A program made the position numbers and the translations under genes. DNA of 64,000 nt from Herbidospora cretacea (GTDB lineage Bacteria; Actinomycetota; Actinomycetes; Streptosporangiales; Streptosporangiaceae), in NCBI RefSeq assembly GCF_001570605.1, contig NZ_BBXG01000025.1:62001-126000 (forward strand), given 5' to 3'. The notes under the pieces were generated by a model, which did not search any database, was not told where the DNA came from, and was given only the letters and a program-made list of their open reading frames with translations. Below, piece after piece: positions 13,861-62,426 of this stretch; within the stretch, counting starts at the first letter, position 1, and each line of letters begins with the position of its first letter.

Positions 13861-15842
13861 CGGGCTACCTCAAGGTTGTACGTGGCCTGGTAGAGCCGGG
13901 TCGCCGCGGCCTCGTCGGGGATCCCGGCTCCGTCGAGCGCGTCGACGTAACGGAGCGTCTCGTCGTCGAACAGTAAACCGATGCGGGCTCGCAGGTCGGA
14001 GCGGGCCTTGCCGCTGATGCTGCGGAGCGACTCGGCGCCGAGCAGGCCGCGCAGGAGCCGCTGCGGGAGGGCTCCGTTGCCTCCAGGGGCGTCGCCGGTG
14101 CCGTAGCCGAGCAGGCCGACGGTGAAGATCAGCGCCAGCGACTCGACGTCGAAGGAGACCAGGCGGGCGACCGAGCGCTTCGTCACGCCCTCGGTGCGGA
14201 CCAGCTCGGTCACGTGGTCCTGCCACGAGGCGACCATGCGGGCGGTGCGGCGGTCGATGTCGTCTTCCGGGCGGCCGAGGCCGGGCAGGGCGGCCAGGCG
14301 GTCACCGGCTCCGGCGCGCTGGCGCCAGCGGGTGACGACCTCTTCGGAGGCGCGGTGGACGGCCGTGCTGATGACCGATTCGAGGCCGCTGCGCAGGGCG
14401 CCGCGCAGTGCGCCGATGCGTTCGGGGCCGTGGTTCTTGGCCTTGCGGATCTGGAGAGTTCGCATCAGGTCACCGGAGCCGGCGAAGTCCTGCCAGCGGG
14501 CCAGCACCTCACCGCGCAGCAACGAGCCGTCGCGGGTCGATTCCTCGATCTCGGCCAGGGCGCCGGAGAACGCGGCGTCGATGTCGGAGCGCAGGTCGGC
14601 CCGGAGCGCGACCTGGGTCTCCAGGTGGCGGGCCAGGGCGGGGACGCGGGCGCGGAAGCTGTTGAGCACGCCGTTCAGCGTCGCCTGGACGGCCAGCGCG
14701 CGGCGCTGCTCGTCGACGGAGAGCTCCGACAGCCACATGCGCAGGTCGGCCACCTCCTCGTCGGGCAGCCGTCCGTTGGTGACCGTGGTCTCGTTGATGA
14801 TGAAGCGCTCCACCTCGCCGAGCCCGTATTCGTCGAGCATGCGGGTGAAGTGCTTGGAGACGACCTCGCGGGAGCGCGCCGGGACCCGGGACAGCACGAT
14901 CACCAGGCGGGCGCCGCGCTCCTTGGCCAGCTTGAGCAGGCCCCACGAGGGGGCGTCGGCGTAGCGGGAGGCGCTGGTGACGAAGACCCACAGGTCGGCC
15001 GCGTCGAGCATGCGGTGGGCGATGTCGTGGTGCTCCTCGACGACCGAGTCGATGTCGGGGGTGTCGAGCAGGGCGACGCCGTGGGGCAGCCACTTGGTCG
15101 AGGCGACCACGATCGAGCCGGAGCCGGGGCCCTCCCCCGGTTCCTCGACCCGCTCCAGGCCGCTGAGCAGCGTGCCCTTCTTGAACCAGCCCTCGTCGGC
15201 GGGGTTGCAGACCAGGACGGGGGTGCCGGTGGTGGGGCGGCGGACGCCGGTGGCGCTGACGGTCTGCGCGGCGAGGGTGTTGACCAGGGTGGACTTCCCG
15301 GCCCCGGTCGATCCGGCGACGACGATCAGGGCGGGGGCGGTGCTCATGTGGACGCGGGGGATGACGTAGTCGTCGAGCTGGGCCAGCACGGCCGCCTGGG
15401 ACTTGCGGGCCTCGTCGGCGCCGGGCACGTCCAGGCCCAGGTGGAGGCCGGTGACGGCTTCACGGAGCTGGCTGAGGGCCTCGGTCAGCGCGCCGGACAC
15501 CTGCTCGGGGAGGTCGAACTCCTCCTCCGGCGCGTCGAAGGAGTCCAGGTCGTCGAAGGAGTCCAGGTCGTCGGCGGAGTCCAGGTCGTCGGCGGAGTCC
15601 GGCTCGTCAGCGGAGTCCAGTTCGTCGGAGGGGTCCAGCTCATCGGAGGGGTCCAGGTTGTCGGCGGAGGCCAGCTCGTCCGAGGGGTCTGGTTCGTCGG
15701 AGATGTCCGCGTCGGGAGGGGCTTCGTCTTCTTTGATCGCCCGGAAGCTGAGTGTCTGCTCGCCGGGCGACTCGGGTTCTTCCTCGGGCATGACGGCCTC
15801 GTCTGCGGGTTCGGACCGCGGTGTCTGGTTGGCAGCCTTCAT
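13857..15842 (-). CDS. Dynamin-like GTPase with acidic repeat leader (DynA-like)
   Basis: 661 residues. Residues about 48-101 are a six-residue acidic repeat (D-S/P-A/S-D-x-L) encoded by 18-bp DNA repeats, probably disordered. The GTPase domain follows: P-loop AGSTGAGKSTL (about residue 182), TGVRRPTTGTP, LLDTPDIDS (G3). A long helical C-terminal half has one weak hydrophobic patch (SLALIFTVGLLGYGTG). Start and stop overlap its neighbours by 4 bp on both sides (ATGA), so cobA, this gene and the next GTPase form one operon. It is likely the soluble partner of the membrane-anchored GTPase downstream in membrane remodelling or septation. Confidence 0.75.
   Translation of the reverse strand: MKAANQTPRSEPADEAVMPEEEPESPGEQTLSFRAIKEDEAPPDADISDEPDPSDELASADNLDPSDELDPSDELDSADEPDSADDLDSADDLDSFDDLDSFDAPEEEFDLPEQVSGALTEALSQLREAVTGLHLGLDVPGADEARKSQAAVLAQLDDYVIPRVHMSTAPALIVVAGSTGAGKSTLVNTLAAQTVSATGVRRPTTGTPVLVCNPADEGWFKKGTLLSGLERVEEPGEGPGSGSIVVASTKWLPHGVALLDTPDIDSVVEEHHDIAHRMLDAADLWVFVTSASRYADAPSWGLLKLAKERGARLVIVLSRVPARSREVVSKHFTRMLDEYGLGEVERFIINETTVTNGRLPDEEVADLRMWLSELSVDEQRRALAVQATLNGVLNSFRARVPALARHLETQVALRADLRSDIDAAFSGALAEIEESTRDGSLLRGEVLARWQDFAGSGDLMRTLQIRKAKNHGPERIGALRGALRSGLESVISTAVHRASEEVVTRWRQRAGAGDRLAALPGLGRPEDDIDRRTARMVASWQDHVTELVRTEGVTKRSVARLVSFDVESLALIFTVGLLGYGTGDAPGGNGALPQRLLRGLLGAESLRSISGKARSDLRARIGLLFDDETLRYVDALDGAGIPDEAAATRLYQATYNLEVAR
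15540..15701. repeat. 18-bp in-frame repeats, about nine units
   Basis: Nine imperfect copies of an 18-bp unit (GGAGTCCAGGTCGTCGGC as read on the plus strand) lie inside the first GTPase gene, writing an Asp/Ser hexapeptide repeat. Units nearest 15540 are almost identical, those toward 15701 more diverged, implying recent expansion at one end. Confidence 0.85.
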
Positions 15843-29111: not shown

Positions 29112-29208
29112 CCCGAAACATCTCACCGCCCGGCGGCGGTAGCGACGCAGCTGCGGCCAGATGCGTGAGCACCCCCGGTGTGCCGACAGGACGTTCACGA
29201 CCTGCGGC

Positions 29209-29356
29209 CAGGCCGCCTGCGGATGCGACGGCGCGCAGCCCAAGGCGGCCCTGAAGATCATGCGAGGGCGACATCCGCAGCCCAGGCCACCTGCGGATGC
29301 GACAGCGCGCAGCCCGAGACAGTTCTGAAGACCATGCGAGGGCGACGCCCGCGTGG
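29209..29356. repeat. Two tandem 74-bp direct repeats
   Basis: Units 29209-29282 and 29283-29356 are near copies (both contain CTGCGGATGCGAC, GCGCGCAGCCC and CATGCGAGGGCGAC) in the short gap between two converging genes. The length is not a multiple of three and no gene covers them. Confidence 0.8.
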
Positions 29357-52857: not shown

Positions 52858-53375
52858 CACGTCCTTCTCCGGCCGCTTCGGCGTTCCAGACTTGAGCGGG
52901 ACGTGGGCACGACTCCGGCCGGGGGCAGGCGACCGGCATACGGTCACGTCCTTCAAGAAGTCCGGAGCCTGGCCATTCCGGCGTCCCAGACGTGAACGAG
53001 ACCTAGGCACGACTCCGACCTGAGGCAGGCGACCGACATACGGTCACGTCCTTCAAGAAGTCCGGAGCCTGGCCATTCCGGCGTCCCAGACGTGAACGAG
53101 ACCTAGGCACGACTCCGACCTGAGGCAGGCGACCGACATACGGTCACGTCCTTCAAGAAGTCCGGAGCCTGGCCATTCCGGCGTCCCAGACGTGAACGAG
53201 ACCTAGGCACGACTCCGACCTGAGGCAGGCGACCGACATACGGCCACGTCCTTCAAGAAGTCCAAAGCCTGGCCATTTCGGCGTCCCAGACTTGGGCGAG
53301 ACCTGGGCACGAGCCTGCCCGACGACTGACCGGCCCCGGCCTGGGACAGGCGACCGGCTAGCGGCCACGTCCGTT
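52858..53375. repeat. Tandem 100-bp satellite array
   Basis: Units beginning at 52941, 53041, 53141 and 53241 repeat with an exact 100-bp period; the middle three are nearly identical. Degenerate copies flank them (from about 52858, and to about 53375). Each unit carries GACGTGA and TCACGTC, able to pair across about 60 nt. The period is not a multiple of three, so a continuous frame would shift at each unit; I do not call a protein. Confidence 0.9.
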
Positions 53376-56453: not shown

Positions 56454-57404
56454 TCAGCGGGGCACCGCCCGCGACAGGACCAGTGCGAAGTCGCCGTCCG
56501 GGTCCGTATACCAGCGCTCCACCTCGAACCCCGCCATCGCCAGTTCCCGGGTCAGCCCCGCCCGGCGGAACTTGGCGCTGATCTCGGTGCGCATCTCCTC
56601 GCCCTCGGCGAAGGTCACCGTCAGGTTCAGGGCCTTGACGTGGACGGACATGTCCTTCGTCGCCCGCAGGCGCATCTCGATCCAGTCGTGGTCGGTGTCG
56701 TAGATCGCCACGTGGGCGAAGTCGGCCGGGACGAAGTCGGCGTCGAGGCGGCGGTTGATCACCCGCAGGACGTTCCGGTTGAAGGCCGCCGTCACGCCAG
56801 CCGAGTCGTCGTAGGCGGCGATCAGCCGGGACGTGTCCTTGACCAGGTCGGCTCCGAGCAGGAACGTCTCCCCGTCGGTCAGGGTCGCGCGGAGCTCCTT
56901 GAAGAAGACCTCGCGGGCCGGAGGCTCCAGGTTGCCGATGGTCCCGCCGAGGAAGGCGACCATGCGGTCCTGCCGCTGCGGCAGCTGGGACAGGTGGTTC
57001 TCGAAGTCGGCGCACACGCCGACCACCTCGAACCGCTCCGACAGCCGGTCGGCGGCGGTCTTGAGCGTCACGGCGTCGACGTCGACCGGCATGTAGGTGC
57101 GCAGGGTCCCGGCCGAGGCCAGGGCGTCGAGCAGCAGCTCGGTCTTCTCCGAGGTGCCGGAGCCGAGTTCGACGAGGGTCGCCGCGCCGCTCACCGCGGC
57201 GATCTCCCGTGCGTGGGCCTTCAGAATGGCCAGCTCACGGCGGGTCGGATAATACTCGGGCAGGCGAGTGATCTTGGTGAAGAGCTCGCTGCCGCAGGCG
57301 TCGTAGAACCACTTGGGCGGCAGCCATTTCGGCGCCGCCGCGAGGCCCGCTCGGACGTCGTGCTCCAGCGCCTGACGCATGTAGTCAGCGTCGATCAGGT
57401 TCAC
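56454..57404 (-). CDS. egtD: L-histidine N-alpha-methyltransferase
   Basis: SAM-dependent enzyme that trimethylates histidine to hercynine, the first step of ergothioneine synthesis. 316 residues; LPPKWFYDACGSELFTKITRLPEYYPTRRE, SAM site LVELGSGTSEKTELLL and GGTIGNLEP are diagnostic. GTG start at 57404 overlaps the egtC stop by 4 bp. Last gene of egtABCD. Confidence 0.96.
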   Translation of the reverse strand: MNLIDADYMRQALEHDVRAGLAAAPKWLPPKWFYDACGSELFTKITRLPEYYPTRRELAILKAHAREIAAVSGAATLVELGSGTSEKTELLLDALASAGTLRTYMPVDVDAVTLKTAADRLSERFEVVGVCADFENHLSQLPQRQDRMVAFLGGTIGNLEPPAREVFFKELRATLTDGETFLLGADLVKDTSRLIAAYDDSAGVTAAFNRNVLRVINRRLDADFVPADFAHVAIYDTDHDWIEMRLRATKDMSVHVKALNLTVTFAEGEEMRTEISAKFRRAGLTRELAMAGFEVERWYTDPDGDFALVLSRAVPR

Positions 57405-58108
57405 AGGTCCCTCCAGTCGATTCCTTCGGGCGTGACGATCACCAGGGTCCGGTCGGGCACGCTCACCCATCCGTCGTCGCGGTCGTCGAGCGGCTCGCTG
57501 GCCACCAGCACCCCTTCGGGGAGCGACCGCACGAATAGCGTGTCGCCCCAGGTCGTGGCCGCGATCGTCTGTCCATCGGTGGCGAGGAGGTTCACTCTCG
57601 CCTCGGCGTCGGCGCCGCCGGCCGCCGTGGTGACCTCGGCGATGGCGTCGCCGAGGCCCCATCCCAGCCGCCCGAGCGCGAAGACCCCGGCGGCGAGCTT
57701 CGCGGAGTCGCAGGTGCTCTCCGCCTCATGGGCCTTCAGGCCGGTCAGCGCCTCGGCGGGCACCCGGCCGTTGTGGCTGAGCAGCCACTTCCCCTCCATG
57801 AAGGGCGCTGTGGCGGTCTCCTCTATCGGCATGCCGACCGTCGCCGAGCGGACCGCCGCGATCAGGCACGTGGAGATCGCCGAGGCGGCCAGGCCGTCGA
57901 GGTTGGCGTCGGCCCACATCGGGATGGACCGGCGATAGCGGACGACGCGGTCATCGGCGTACCAGCCCATGCCGAAACCATCGGCGTTAACGGTGCCCCA
58001 GCGCTGCCGCCTGGGCACGTAGGACTGTTTCAGCAGGCCGTGGTCGGGCTGCTGGATCAGCGACGACAGCGGGCGGGGTTCGCCGAGCCATGCGGCGTGA
58101 CGGCACAT
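57401..58108 (-). CDS. egtC: Gamma-glutamyl hercynylcysteine sulfoxide amidohydrolase
   Basis: Class II glutamine-amidotransferase-fold enzyme that removes the gamma-glutamyl group. 235 residues; after removal of Met the N-terminal nucleophile is Cys2 (MCRHAAWLG). NADGFGMGWY and LLSHNGRV are the family motifs. Its start shares TGATG with the egtB stop. Confidence 0.95.
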   Translation of the reverse strand: MCRHAAWLGEPRPLSSLIQQPDHGLLKQSYVPRRQRWGTVNADGFGMGWYADDRVVRYRRSIPMWADANLDGLAASAISTCLIAAVRSATVGMPIEETATAPFMEGKWLLSHNGRVPAEALTGLKAHEAESTCDSAKLAAGVFALGRLGWGLGDAIAEVTTAAGGADAEARVNLLATDGQTIAATTWGDTLFVRSLPEGVLVASEPLDDRDDGWVSVPDRTLVIVTPEGIDWRDL

Positions 58109-59394
58109 CAGCGGGCCCCCTCCGCCTCGCCGGCGTCTCGGGCGCAGCGGAAGCCGGAGAAGATCTGGCGGCGCTGCGGATAGTCCCAGTTGCGGAAGGT
58201 GGCCCGGACCGCCGCCGGGTCGGCCGCCCAGGAGCCGCCGCGCAGCACGCGGTAGTCGGGCCCGAAGAAGACCTCGCTGTACTCGCGGTACGGGAACGCG
58301 CGGAAGCCCGGATAGGCCTGGAACGTGGAGGACGTCCACTCCCAGACGTCGCCGATCATCTGCTCGACGCCGTAGGGGCTCGTCCCGGCCGGGTAGGCGC
58401 CCACGGGGGCCGGACGGGCGGCCCGATGGCCGAGGTTGGCCAGCTCGGGGGTGGGCGGCTCGTCGCCCCACGGGTAGCGCCGCGAGCGTCCCTCCTCGGG
58501 GCTCCAGGCGCAGGCCTTCTCCCACTCGGGCTCGGTGGGCAGCCGCTTGCCCGCCCAGCGGGCGTAGGCGTCGGCCTCGTACCAGCTCACGTGCTGCACC
58601 GGCTCGTTGGGCGGGATCTGCTCGGCCCGGCCGAAGCGGGTGCGCCACCAGGTGCCGCCGTCGTCACGGGTCCAGAACAGCGGCGCCTGGAGGCCCAGCC
58701 GGAAGCCCTCGGGATGCCACCAGCGCGGGTCGCGGTAGCCGCCGTCTTCGACGAAGGCCAGGAAGTCGCCGTTGCTGACGGGCACCCGATCGATCCAGAA
58801 CGCCGGGACGTCGACCGTGTGGGCAGGGCGCTCGTTGTCGTAGGCCCACGGGTTGACGTCGGTGCCCATGGTGAACGGCCCACCGGGGACGAACACCTCG
58901 CCCGACACCGGCCGCCCGGCGGGCAGGTCGCCGTCGCCGACCAGGCCAGGCTCGCGGGAGAGCTGGAGGGTGGCGAGCATGGTCTCGTCGTGCTGGTGTT
59001 CGTGCTGGATGATCAGCCCGAACACGAAGCCGCCCGACTTGAGCGGATTCGGATCGTCGAAGTCGACCTTGTCGAGAACGTCGAGCACCCGCCCGCGCAC
59101 ACCCTCGATGTAGGCGCGCGCCTCGGCCGGCCCCAGCATCGGCAGCGTCGGACGGTCGCGGCGCGGCGTCTTGAACGCGTCGTAGATGTCGTCGATCTCG
59201 GGTCGCAGCGGCGTGATCCCGCCGACCTCGCGCAGCACCCACAGCTCCTCGTAGTTTCCGACGTGGGCGAGGTCCCAGACCAGCGGCGACATCAACGGGG
59301 AGTGCTGGCGGACGAGCAGGTGGTCGTCGGCGTCGGTGTAGCTCAGGGAGCGGTCGCGCACAGCCTGGAGCTGGGCGGCGATCTGTTCCTTCAT
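58108..59394 (-). CDS. egtB: Ergothioneine sulfoxide synthase (iron-dependent)
   Basis: Non-haem iron oxygenase joining hercynine and gamma-glutamylcysteine. 428 residues: N-terminal DinB-like helical domain with the iron ligands (His in DLAHVGNYEE, IIQHEHQHDE at about residue 133) and C-terminal FGE-sulfatase domain (RLPTEPEWEKACAW, GDVWEWTSS, RVLRGGSWA). The ATG at 59394 overlaps the egtA stop by 4 bp. Confidence 0.96.
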   Translation of the reverse strand: MKEQIAAQLQAVRDRSLSYTDADDHLLVRQHSPLMSPLVWDLAHVGNYEELWVLREVGGITPLRPEIDDIYDAFKTPRRDRPTLPMLGPAEARAYIEGVRGRVLDVLDKVDFDDPNPLKSGGFVFGLIIQHEHQHDETMLATLQLSREPGLVGDGDLPAGRPVSGEVFVPGGPFTMGTDVNPWAYDNERPAHTVDVPAFWIDRVPVSNGDFLAFVEDGGYRDPRWWHPEGFRLGLQAPLFWTRDDGGTWWRTRFGRAEQIPPNEPVQHVSWYEADAYARWAGKRLPTEPEWEKACAWSPEEGRSRRYPWGDEPPTPELANLGHRAARPAPVGAYPAGTSPYGVEQMIGDVWEWTSSTFQAYPGFRAFPYREYSEVFFGPDYRVLRGGSWAADPAAVRATFRNWDYPQRRQIFSGFRCARDAGEAEGAR

Positions 59395-61217
59395 CGGCTC
59401 TCCAAGAGGAGGTCGGCGGCCGGGGACCGGCCGGGTTCGACGAACCGCACGGCATAGTCGGTGACCTGGTCGATCAGACTCTGTGGCGCGCCGTGGCGGG
59501 GCAACGCCCTGACGGCGGCCCGGAAGGCCGCGACGGCGGCGCGGCGGATGGGCGGCGGAGCGAGCCCGCACCTGGCCGCCTCGGCCCACTGCCCCGCGAC
59601 GGCCATCGCGTCACCGGCCGCGGCGGCGGCCGCCTCGTCGTCGACGATCAGGGCGTAGGAGACGGCGACCGCGACCGGCCAAGCGACCGGGCCGAGGGCG
59701 TCGAGGTAGCGGATCTCCATGAACCCGCGCGGCCGGACGGGCGGAAAGAGAGTGGTGGCGTGATAGGCCAGGTCATCGAGGGTGGGCGGACGCCCGGTGG
59801 CGAGCTGGAAGTCACGGAACCTCTGCGCCCCCGCCATCTGCCGGCAGGACCCGTCGGACTCGTTGACCAGCATCAGCCGCGCGGCCTCAAGGTAGGCGGC
59901 CCAGTCAGCGGCCGGATGCCCCCGCCGAGGCAGCCCCAAGGCCCGTCGGCCCACAGAGACGGTCTCCGCCGAACGGAGCCGGTTCACCTGGCCGCTGTAA
60001 GCGCCACCCTCCGCCTCCACAAATGGGACACATGAACATCCGAGACGAGAACCAGTGGAAACCGCCGGAGACTCCCCGGAGCCATCGCATATGGCGCATG
60101 ACCGGCCGGCATCCGCCCCTGCGGACGCCTGCCCGAACGGCCCCATGCCCGAATCCACGCGCTGCCCATGAGAACCGCCGCAGACCACGCACGAACGACC
60201 CGAACGCAGTAGCGCCTCGCTCGATCCGCTGCGTGTGGTCCCCGAATGAACAGGATTCGATGCCGCGGACGCCTGTCCTCGGACACTCACCGACCGTTCA
60301 CCCGAACCACCGCAGGCAACGCACAACCGACCGGGCTCCTGCGCCTCCGACCGTTCACCCGGCCCGCCACAGGCGACGCATGATCGACCGAATTCCTGCG
60401 CCTCCGACCCTGCACCCGGCCCGCCACAGGCGACGCATGATCGACCCACGTCCTGCGCCTCCGACCCTGCACCCGAACCGCCACAGGCAACGCACAATCG
60501 ACCGAACTCCTGCGCCTGCGACCGCTCGCCCGACCCGCCGCAAGCCGCACACGCATAACCATCCGGTGTACCCCCGGCCAGGTCTGCCTCGGCCGGAAGA
60601 TGCCCCGGCCCCACCGGAGCCGTGCGCGTCGGGTCGAGTGCCAGCCAGATCGCCTGCCTCCCCGACAGCCACGGTTCGAATCCCGGCACCGGCCCCGGCG
60701 AGTTGGCGAACGCCGCCACCAGCACCGGCCCGAACAGATGAGCCCGTCGCCACCGGACGAAGGGATCAGGCCCGAAGTCGAGGTTGACCTGGATCGACGC
60801 GGTCGAGCACATCATCAGCGGCCCATAGGGCTCCCCCAGGCAGGCGGCCATGGCGTCATAGCGCGGGGTGTGGAGCTGGCGCAGCGGGCGCCGGTGACCG
60901 TCGACCCCCGACCGCCCGAGCGCGAGGCCGGCCGCGCCCAGAGCAGACCGTACGAGATCGACGTCGTGTTGGAGCGCGGCCACAGCAGACGGCAGCGAAC
61001 CCGGTGGCGCCGACAGTTCGATCTGGCCTCCGGGCTCGAAGGTGATCACGCTCCCGCCGGGAAGGGTCAGCCCGCCGAGAGCGCCGGTGACCCGCGCGAT
61101 GGGCACGGTCAGCGATGGGTCGGTCACGTCGTGGACGAGGAACTCCAGCTCCACGCCGACCTGATCGCCGGGGCTCCCCGTGAAACAGCCTTCCGCGTAC
61201 GCCAGCACATCGGCCAT
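59391..61217 (-). CDS. egtA: EgtA glutamate-cysteine ligase with a CxxC-repeat insertion
   Basis: Makes gamma-glutamylcysteine for ergothioneine. 608 residues, about 200 longer than usual. The normal ligase is present in two parts: residues about 1-203 (VGVELEFLVHD, SVITFEPGGQIELSAPP, MMCSTASIQVNLDFG, WLALDPTRTAPVG) and about 435-608 (DWAAYLEAARLMLV, LAYHATTLFPPVRPRGFMEIRYLDA). Between them sits an insertion with CxxCGGxG motifs at cysteines 223/226, 242/245, 261/264, 280/283, 299/302, 343/346 and 374/377, the first five spaced exactly 19 residues apart. The sixth has His in place of the last Gly. CxxCxGxG is the DnaJ zinc-binding pattern. The insertion DNA consists of 57-bp repeats with lower G/C at third positions than the flanks. 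The start is ATG 61217 (GTG 61223 possible). The reading frame is intact, so function may persist. Confidence 0.9.
   Translation of the reverse strand: MADVLAYAEGCFTGSPGDQVGVELEFLVHDVTDPSLTVPIARVTGALGGLTLPGGSVITFEPGGQIELSAPPGSLPSAVAALQHDVDLVRSALGAAGLALGRSGVDGHRRPLRQLHTPRYDAMAACLGEPYGPLMMCSTASIQVNLDFGPDPFVRWRRAHLFGPVLVAAFANSPGPVPGFEPWLSGRQAIWLALDPTRTAPVGPGHLPAEADLAGGTPDGYACAACGGSGERSQAQEFGRLCVACGGSGAGSEAQDVGRSCVACGGPGAGSEAQEFGRSCVACGGPGERSEAQEPGRLCVACGGSGERSVSVRGQASAASNPVHSGTTRSGSSEALLRSGRSCVVCGGSHGQRVDSGMGPFGQASAGADAGRSCAICDGSGESPAVSTGSRLGCSCVPFVEAEGGAYSGQVNRLRSAETVSVGRRALGLPRRGHPAADWAAYLEAARLMLVNESDGSCRQMAGAQRFRDFQLATGRPPTLDDLAYHATTLFPPVRPRGFMEIRYLDALGPVAWPVAVAVSYALIVDDEAAAAAAGDAMAVAGQWAEAARCGLAPPPIRRAAVAAFRAAVRALPRHGAPQSLIDQVTDYAVRFVEPGRSPAADLLLESR
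60308..60592. repeat. 57-bp in-frame repeats inside egtA
   Basis: Five units starting at 60308, 60365, 60422, 60479 and 60536, each encoding one 19-residue CxxCGGxG unit; adjacent units are close copies. More diverged units continue down to about 60000. One of them, at 60007-60030, would read CPICGGGG but now lies in another frame. Confidence 0.92.
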
Positions 61218-61254
61218 GACCACTCAGATCCATGACCGCCCCTGGCGTTACACC

Positions 61255-61494
61255 TCATTCCGAGTTTTCTGCGCTCGTTTCCCGGAAGGCCGTCAGCAGG
61301 CGGGATCGCGTCTGCGGGGAGAGGCCGGGGGCGGGGAGCTCACCGAGGGCGGTGATGGTGGCGGTGAACCGGCCGTAGTAACCGGCGCAGCCGCCGCACA
61401 CGGCCATGTGGTCGAGGAAGAGGGGGCGGGAGGAGGAGTCGAGGGCGTCGTCGAGGAAGGCGGTCACGAGTTCGGCGAACTCGTCGCAGTTCAT
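61255..61494 (-). CDS. RsrA-like zinc anti-sigma factor
   Basis: 79 residues with the ZAS signature: Cys3, then His29-x3-Cys33-x2-Cys36 (HMAVCGGC). The spacing of 26 residues between first Cys and His equals that of the thiol-disulfide switch RsrA. It should hold the adjacent ECF sigma factor until oxidised. ATG at 61494 overlaps the sigma stop (ATGA). It is followed after 37 bp by egtA on the same strand. Confidence 0.85.
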   Translation of the reverse strand: MNCDEFAELVTAFLDDALDSSSRPLFLDHMAVCGGCAGYYGRFTATITALGELPAPGLSPQTRSRLLTAFRETSAENSE

Positions 61495-62102
61495 GGCCCT
61501 CCTTTCCCGTCGTAGTAGGCCGCCAGGTGGTCGCGGACGGCCGCCCTGGCCCGGTGGAGCAGCACCCGCTGGTTGGCCGGGGAGATCGACAGGATCTCGC
61601 AGACCTCGTCGGAGCCGTAGCCCTCCATGTCGCGCAGCGTGATCACGGCGCGCTGCCGGGACGGGAGGGTGCCCACCGCCTGCTCGATCAGCTCTCTGAC
61701 CTCGCCGGCCAGCGCCGCCCCTTCGGGACCGCCCTCGGCCCGCTCGGGCCGGTCGCCGTCGGGACGCTCGCCGCCGACGCTGCTCACCGGGATAGTACGG
61801 CTCTCTCGCTCTCCGCGTCTGCGCGCGGTGTTGACCAGAATGCGGTAAACCCATGTGCGCAGGGACGACCGGCCCTCGAAGGCGCCGACGGCCCGGATGA
61901 CCGCGAGCCAGGTGTCCTGGACGACTTCCTCCGCCGACGCCGCCGTCGACACGTATGACCTGGCAAGGCGCAGCATCCCGCGTGACCATTCGTCGAGAAG
62001 CAGCGCGAAGACCGCCTCGTCGCCGCTGCGCAGCCCGGCCACGATCACCGGATCGGGCGGAAAATCGGTCACCTCACCGAGCCTAACGACGCCCTCCGAC
62101 AT
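61491..62102 (-). CDS. ECF RNA polymerase sigma factor
   Basis: 203 residues from the ATG at 62102 (GGAGGGTCGCGGGA upstream); a GTG at 62072 is an alternative. Region 2 is FALLLDEWSRGMLRLARSYVSTAASAEEVVQDTWLAVIRAVGAFEGRSSLRTWVYRILVN; region 4 is LPSRQRAVITLRDMEGYGSDEVCEILSISPANQRVLLHRARAAVRDHL. It is coupled to the RsrA-like anti-sigma and lies upstream of egtABCD, all on the minus strand, so oxidative control of ergothioneine synthesis is an attractive inference. Confidence 0.92.
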   Translation of the reverse strand: MSEGVVRLGEVTDFPPDPVIVAGLRSGDEAVFALLLDEWSRGMLRLARSYVSTAASAEEVVQDTWLAVIRAVGAFEGRSSLRTWVYRILVNTARRRGERESRTIPVSSVGGERPDGDRPERAEGGPEGAALAGEVRELIEQAVGTLPSRQRAVITLRDMEGYGSDEVCEILSISPANQRVLLHRARAAVRDHLAAYYDGKGGP

Positions 62103-62426
62103 TCCCGCGACCCTCCAGTGAACGCCCGATGCCCGCAATGTCTCCCCTGCCCGGCATCTCCCCCTATCCACCTAATCACCCTCTGTGAGCGATTCGGTCG
62201 GCAGGGTGTCGAAGCACGGTAACCGACGCATGCGAACTCCCGTTGACGTCGTGTGAATCCCGATGGCGGCGCGCCACCGGCGGCGATCACCCAACGTGAC
62301 CACAGGGATGAACGGACGACGAACGCGACGTGACTACCTGTGGATATCTCCTCGCGGGATGCGGTTTTCCACAGGCCGGGTTCCCGCGTCGTCCGGGCGG
62401 GATCGGGGACGGTAGGTTCTTGAACC
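62103..62426. other. Divergent promoter region, sigma factor / dapD
   Basis: About 320 bp without a gene. It contains two DnaA-box-like sequences, TGTGGATAT near 62340 and TTTTCCACA near 62364, each one base from consensus. A TAGGTT -10-like box at 62413-62418, 8 bp before the dapD start, suggests a leaderless dapD transcript. I could not identify a convincing SigR-type GGAAT-N18-GTT promoter for the sigma gene. Confidence 0.5.

Follow-up and report, generated by a model that had tools for sequence, protein, structure and literature searches.

Why the ergothioneine ligase EgtA of Herbidospora cretacea carries a long, cysteine-rich block in the middle of its chain is the question raised by this locus, because the block may be a working part of an enzyme whose substrate is cysteine or a repeat tolerated by one of its loops. 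A first-pass annotation of the window (the whole 64,000-nucleotide stretch of DNA analyzed here) had left both readings open. We compared the gene with those of its relatives, searched for the repeat elsewhere, and examined the codon positions at which the repeat units differ.

The egtA gene and its insert

The genes of the operon and the parts of the insert are as follows.

61223..59391, minus strand: egtA, 610 aa including the insert, glutamate-cysteine ligase of ergothioneine synthesis (open reading frame and Pfam/TIGR profiles)
59922..60611, minus strand: insert, EgtA residues 205–434, 230 aa, in frame, 16 Cys, predicted disordered
60279..60563, minus strand: five tandem 57-bp/19-residue units, CxxCGG[SP]G (TRF and sequence)
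60150..60203, minus strand: sixth unit, diverged, CVVCGGSH (sequence)
60057..60110, minus strand: seventh unit, diverged, CAICDGSG (sequence)
60027..60044, minus strand: degenerate unit LGCSCV, residues 394–399, common to H. mongoliensis
58108..59394, minus strand: egtB (TIGR03440, 424.7 bits, cut-off 360)
57401..58090 (start approximate), minus strand: egtC-like class II glutamine amidotransferase gene (PF13230, 28.6 bits, cut-off 23)
56454..57419 (start approximate), minus strand: histidine-specific methyltransferase gene, presumably egtD (PF10017, 375 bits)

The start of egtA was taken as the GTG at 61223, with an alternative ATG at 61217, and the ORF translation was open throughout its 610 residues. 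The protein matched the GCS2 profile at 124.7 bits (cut-off 21), and the earlier description of an EgtA with an in-frame insert and an intact frame was borne out. Against TIGR03444, it scored 325.2 bits, below the cut-off of 370.8, and the match was split into two stretches; the insert is probably the cause of this low score. In an alignment of 30 EgtA proteins, which includes one incomplete sequence (L018), 58 columns were invariant in 30/30, H. cretacea EgtA included. Both egtB and egtD were present as neighbors of egtA. The names of the two distal genes are our assumption: we take the amidotransferase gene to be egtC from the gene order, and the methyltransferase gene to be egtD. Overall, H. 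cretacea EgtA resembles the TIGR03444 family in its flanks, its invariant columns, and its neighboring egtB, amidotransferase, and methyltransferase genes, and differs from it by the Cys-rich insert and the sub-cut-off score.

The ATG of egtB overlaps the TGA of egtA (ATGA, read from the DNA), so that a frameshift within the array would disturb this junction too and would, we infer, affect the coupling of the two genes. The genes for an ECF sigma factor and for a small anti-sigma factor of the zf-HC2 type, with HxxxCxxC, immediately precede egtA on the minus strand (61258–62171). A motif scan found this pair upstream of egtA in 6/6 Herbidospora congeners and in 5/23 other relatives (L016, L017, and L019 to L021), for which no more than about 1.5 kb of upstream sequence was covered, so that misses carry little weight. 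The sigma/anti-sigma pair suggests that the ergothioneine operon is under stress control.

The EgtA sequence breaks off after ...DPTRTAPV at residue 204 and resumes with GHPAADW from residue 435. The insert therefore lies where it had been placed, with a start about 20 bases further out, at 60611 instead of 60592. It contains 16 Cys in its 230 residues, compared with 5 in the other 380 residues of EgtA. The seven CxxC motifs stand at residues 225, 244, 263, 282, 301, 345, and 376; six have the full form CxxCxGxG, and the one at residue 345 is CVVCGGSH, exactly as first counted. The first five are precisely 19 residues (57 bp) apart, and TRF reported a 57-bp unit with 4.4 copies and a score of 318 at 60290–60539, in agreement with the period given in the first-pass annotation. 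The repeat unit is thus a multiple of three bases inside an open frame, as in an in-frame minisatellite. The five tandem units all differ from one another, and the seventh unit contains CDGS, as do the four units of the congeners, whereas the other six H. cretacea units have CGG. The LGCSCV remnant has an identical peptide in H. cretacea and H. mongoliensis, with two synonymous differences. Codon bias is weak within the insert (GC3 153/230, compared with 333/380 in the rest of EgtA, p = 9e−10), as expected of a young or loosely constrained sequence.

Distribution of the unit among Herbidospora species and other genera

The congeners compared were H. yilanensis, H. sakaeratensis, H. galbida, H. 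daliensis, H. solisilvae, and H. mongoliensis (genomes G001 to G006, respectively). Across the seven Herbidospora species, the number of CxxC units in this loop was 7 plus a remnant, 2 plus a remnant, 1, 1, 0, 0, and 0: H. mongoliensis has two units and the LGCSCV remnant, H. sakaeratensis and H. daliensis have a single unit each, and no CxxC was found in the EgtA loop of H. yilanensis, H. galbida, or H. solisilvae. The loop, measured between the positions aligned with residues 201 and 441, spans 239 residues in H. cretacea and 115, 40, 44, 35, 22, and 33 residues in the other six. The comparison with related genera that had been proposed at the outset was carried out with 23 EgtA proteins, in which the corresponding loop has 11–27 residues without Cys; CxxC occurred within EgtA in 0/23, two frames having one upstream of the likely start. 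Absence from all close relatives, which the first-pass annotation had named as telling against its reading, is not what was found, since CxxC units were present at this loop in 3/6 congeners.

In a tree of the flanks, H. cretacea and H. mongoliensis were grouped (100/100, with the bootstrap not settled), and the branching of the other five species was not resolved. By eye, a lost unit seems to have left remnants in the loops of H. galbida (AAWNGSGS) and H. solisilvae. Judged from these sequences, the insert is a feature of the genus that was expanded in H. cretacea by in-frame duplication. Because the unit is absent in three of the seven species, the CxxC of the loop is dispensable, which argues against an essential role.

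Searches for the array outside EgtA

A dispersed mobile element was considered and rejected: a DNA search of the H. cretacea genome with two units matched the array itself, with the next best match at E = 0.0097 over about 36 bp. No second array of this kind was seen in this genome. The 52-aa repeat had matches in 7 other genomes among 200 of the family (E 0.0006 to 0.009). Among these seven family loci and three weak matches in the H. cretacea genome itself, only L062 had at least two in-frame CxxCxG: its 101-residue frame contains two, separated by about 36 residues.

A profile of the unit (A4) gave 11 matches with E < 0.01 in the seven genomes of the genus, all in EgtA, and 11 others with E ≥ 0.2. 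In 297 family genomes (290 outside the seven Herbidospora), 47 had a match with E ≤ 0.05, four of these being Herbidospora; outside Herbidospora EgtA, every match had E ≥ 0.0036, and no contig carried two. Eleven of the family loci were inspected. Nine had the motif, none of them in a frame bearing the EgtA signature, and two had no motif by regular expression. One of the eleven, L097, carries two CxxCGGSG about 21 residues apart in a frame of 105 residues that also has a hydrophobic stretch, and is a natural comparison for paired units.

Among at most seven scored candidates per genome in 394 genomes of the class, the insert matched itself and had two weak matches (E 1.6e−4 and 3.3e−4). No relative of the insert was found in viral contigs, and no match was found in plasmids. 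A PDB search with the insert gave a repeat-rich adhesin as its sole match (E 0.006), and one with the unit profile gave zero matches. An EgtA with such an insert was not found described in the titles and opening lines of abstracts in the literature.

Codon-position evidence for possible selection on the unit

The placing of units inside the insert by MAFFT was unreliable, and the units used for the tests were aligned on CxxC without gaps. Eleven units were used: seven from H. cretacea, two from H. mongoliensis, and one each from H. sakaeratensis and H. daliensis. Because the units were picked by their CxxC, conservation of the Cys is itself no evidence, and Cys codons were excluded. In the ten non-Cys columns from −3 to +9, a range selected after inspection of the per-column table, differences at codon positions 1/2/3 numbered 97/184/330 (p = 0.0001, exact label permutation). 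Narrower column ranges gave p = 0.0027 and 0.025, and the third-position excess over all 16 non-Cys columns had p = 0.0225, whereas the spacer columns 10–14 of the 11 units had no excess (p = 0.98). The same pattern was obtained with seven diverse units (core p = 0.00007, spacer 0.76), with the four units of the other three Herbidospora species (core 0.0009, spacer 0.58), and with the five tandem copies only (core 0.0076, spacer 1.0). In the four columns after CxxC, the nonsynonymous and synonymous proportions were 0.17 and 0.67, compared with 0.50 and 0.49 in the ten flanking columns.

Three control minisatellites, two from EgtA of other genera (G034 and G031) and a third from a P-loop protein encoded in the window, had no third-position excess (p = 0.71, 0.33, and 0.26), in arrays that are short and give limited power. 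For the G034 control (p = 0.71), three units were placed in register after removal of one codon, and the fourth was omitted. The G034 gene (L018), from another genus, has a 42-bp in-frame repeat at 914–1091 in a different loop of EgtA and a 15-bp repeat at 11–161 in the C-terminal tail, and the G031 gene (L033) has a 24-bp repeat at 877–1053 in yet another loop. The P-loop protein (661 aa) has an 18-bp in-frame repeat of 9.4 copies in an acidic linker near its start (15533–15702, minus strand). The two EgtA repeats are like the Herbidospora array in being in frame and in EgtA loops of the same family, and unlike it in their loops, their few or absent Cys, and their lack of a third-position excess.

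From these codon patterns, the core GxSCxxC[DG]G[SP]GE appears to be under selection, possibly because it serves as a dithiol or binds metal, and the insert is probably more than junk. The account that we tentatively prefer, with nearly an even chance of being right, is that a selected core capable of acting as a dithiol or metal ligand would sit in a tolerant loop, would have been multiplied by in-frame duplication, and would couple EgtA to the thiol or metal state of the cell.

A close rival of this selected-core account is a selfish or neutral in-frame minisatellite without function, tolerated in a disordered loop, whose CxxC would be an accident of the founding sequence. We consider this quite possible, if on balance doubtful. 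The copy number of 0–7, the lack of the unit in 3/6 congeners, and the low GC3 of the insert are what it would lead one to expect, and so are the unrelated in-frame repeats in other loops of two EgtA of the family and in the P-loop protein of the window. It accounts poorly for a third-position excess confined to the core and absent from spacers and control arrays, and for the cross-species 8-residue core (Cys included), in which the peptides are similar and the synonymous difference is high (pS 0.77, pN 0.16). The term "selfish minisatellite" in the first-pass annotation consequently fits the tandem duplicates, but given the evidence of selection on the core, it may be half the story.

Predicted structure and comparison with DnaJ

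In the AlphaFold2 model, EgtA residues 206–433 had pLDDT < 50 (25–37 per ten-residue block from 211 to 430), between bordering helices at 198–201 and 437–447. Residues 171–210, just before the insert, were weak too (50–65), and most other blocks exceeded 80. The insert is thus predicted to be disordered, in a model for which few sequences cover the insert and from which zinc is absent. The core fold matched the plant glutamate-cysteine ligase 2gwc (Z 30.7, rmsd 3.6, 372 residues), which, with the 58 invariant columns, agrees with the earlier statement that the flanks are those of a normal EgtA. The structure prediction that had been proposed as a check on a surface loop therefore returned a disordered loop in an otherwise normal ligase. 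The model of H. daliensis EgtA had a mean pLDDT of 84.8, with low confidence in the single-unit loop at 212–219 and 226–231.

In DnaJ, pairs of CxxCxGxG bind zinc between units. The insert shares with the DnaJ central domain (PF00684) its serial CxxCxGxG motifs, and differs in that its CxxC units are odd in number (seven) and lie within an enzyme. PF00684 gave 17.3 bits for the insert and 11.4 for the whole EgtA (cut-off 32.7), and a Pfam scan of the whole protein had no J-domain match. By the Pfam cut-off, the insert is not a DnaJ domain; the likeness to DnaJ proposed earlier holds for the pattern and not for a profile relationship. An improbable further reading is that the CxxCxGxG units would pair across the array and hold Zn(II), forming a folded platform missed by the prediction. 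Six such motifs in series and the weak profile match point that way, whereas the sub-cut-off score, the odd unit count, the existence of single-unit species, the lack of a PDB match to the unit profile, and the lack of a fold in AlphaFold2, albeit with few sequences covering the insert, speak against it. An assembly or sequencing artefact is very improbable, even in a draft genome of 36 contigs and with tandem repeats described as prone to assembly errors in the part of the literature consulted (PMC6868369), because no two of the five tandem units are identical, the reading frame stays open, and the motif recurs at this position in congeners; real doubt seems to attach to the exact copy number only.

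Possible origin and role of the insert

Under the selected-core account, a loop that is short in other genera would have gained a unit, probably in or before the Herbidospora ancestor, with the putative founding core G[HR]SC[VA]xC[DG]G[SP]GE. In this tolerant loop, predicted to be disordered, slippage or unequal exchange would have multiplied the 57-bp unit through tandem duplications in frame, to the greatest extent in H. cretacea. Because 57 bp is 19 codons, each event would leave the reading frame, and hence the ATGA junction to egtB, undisturbed. Selection would retain the 12-residue peptide core while the spacers drift. With Gly and Ser after it, a CxxC pair is suited to act as a dithiol or a metal ligand, and the core may act as a dithiol whose CxxC pairs form reversible disulfides; zinc may also be bound between units, as in DnaJ, where at least two are present. 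Two species retain just one unit, which has too few Cys for a four-Cys zinc site within one chain; a dithiol is therefore the likelier original role. By either route, the loop would couple EgtA, whose substrate is cysteine, to the thiol or metal state.

The redox switch of plant glutamate-cysteine ligase (GCL) is reportedly unique to plants, to go by the title of a 2008 paper by Gromes. The plant enzyme (2gwc) and EgtA share a fold, and the former sets an example of an enzyme of this class under thiol control; its switch is a single disulfide linking cysteines that lie far apart (186 and 406), whereas H. cretacea EgtA has CxxC repeats. In the plant enzyme, reduction of the Cys186–Cys406 disulfide lowers activity, and some related proteobacterial enzymes do not respond, according to the portion of one study that we drew on (PMC9426629). 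By analogy with plant GCL, thiol control of this ligase class is credible, which proves nothing for EgtA.

A more specific version, which we regard as rather unlikely, is that the loop is a genus-specific thiol or metal module of variable copy number that tunes the entry flux into ergothioneine synthesis to zinc or redox state; in-frame duplication of a selected 12-residue core would then be giving rise to a regulatory domain. Should the loop indeed respond to thiols or metal, ergothioneine synthesis would be controlled in a novel way. The close relatives with 0, 1, 2, and 7 units form a natural series of an enzyme gaining a cysteine-rich module, and this series allows a direct test of whether a repeat born by duplication gains a function.

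Tandem repeats also occur elsewhere in the window: a 100-bp repeat at 52879–53312 (4.3 copies, 94% matches), spanned by no listed ORF of at least 100 aa, and a 74-bp repeat at 29208–29346 (1.9 copies).
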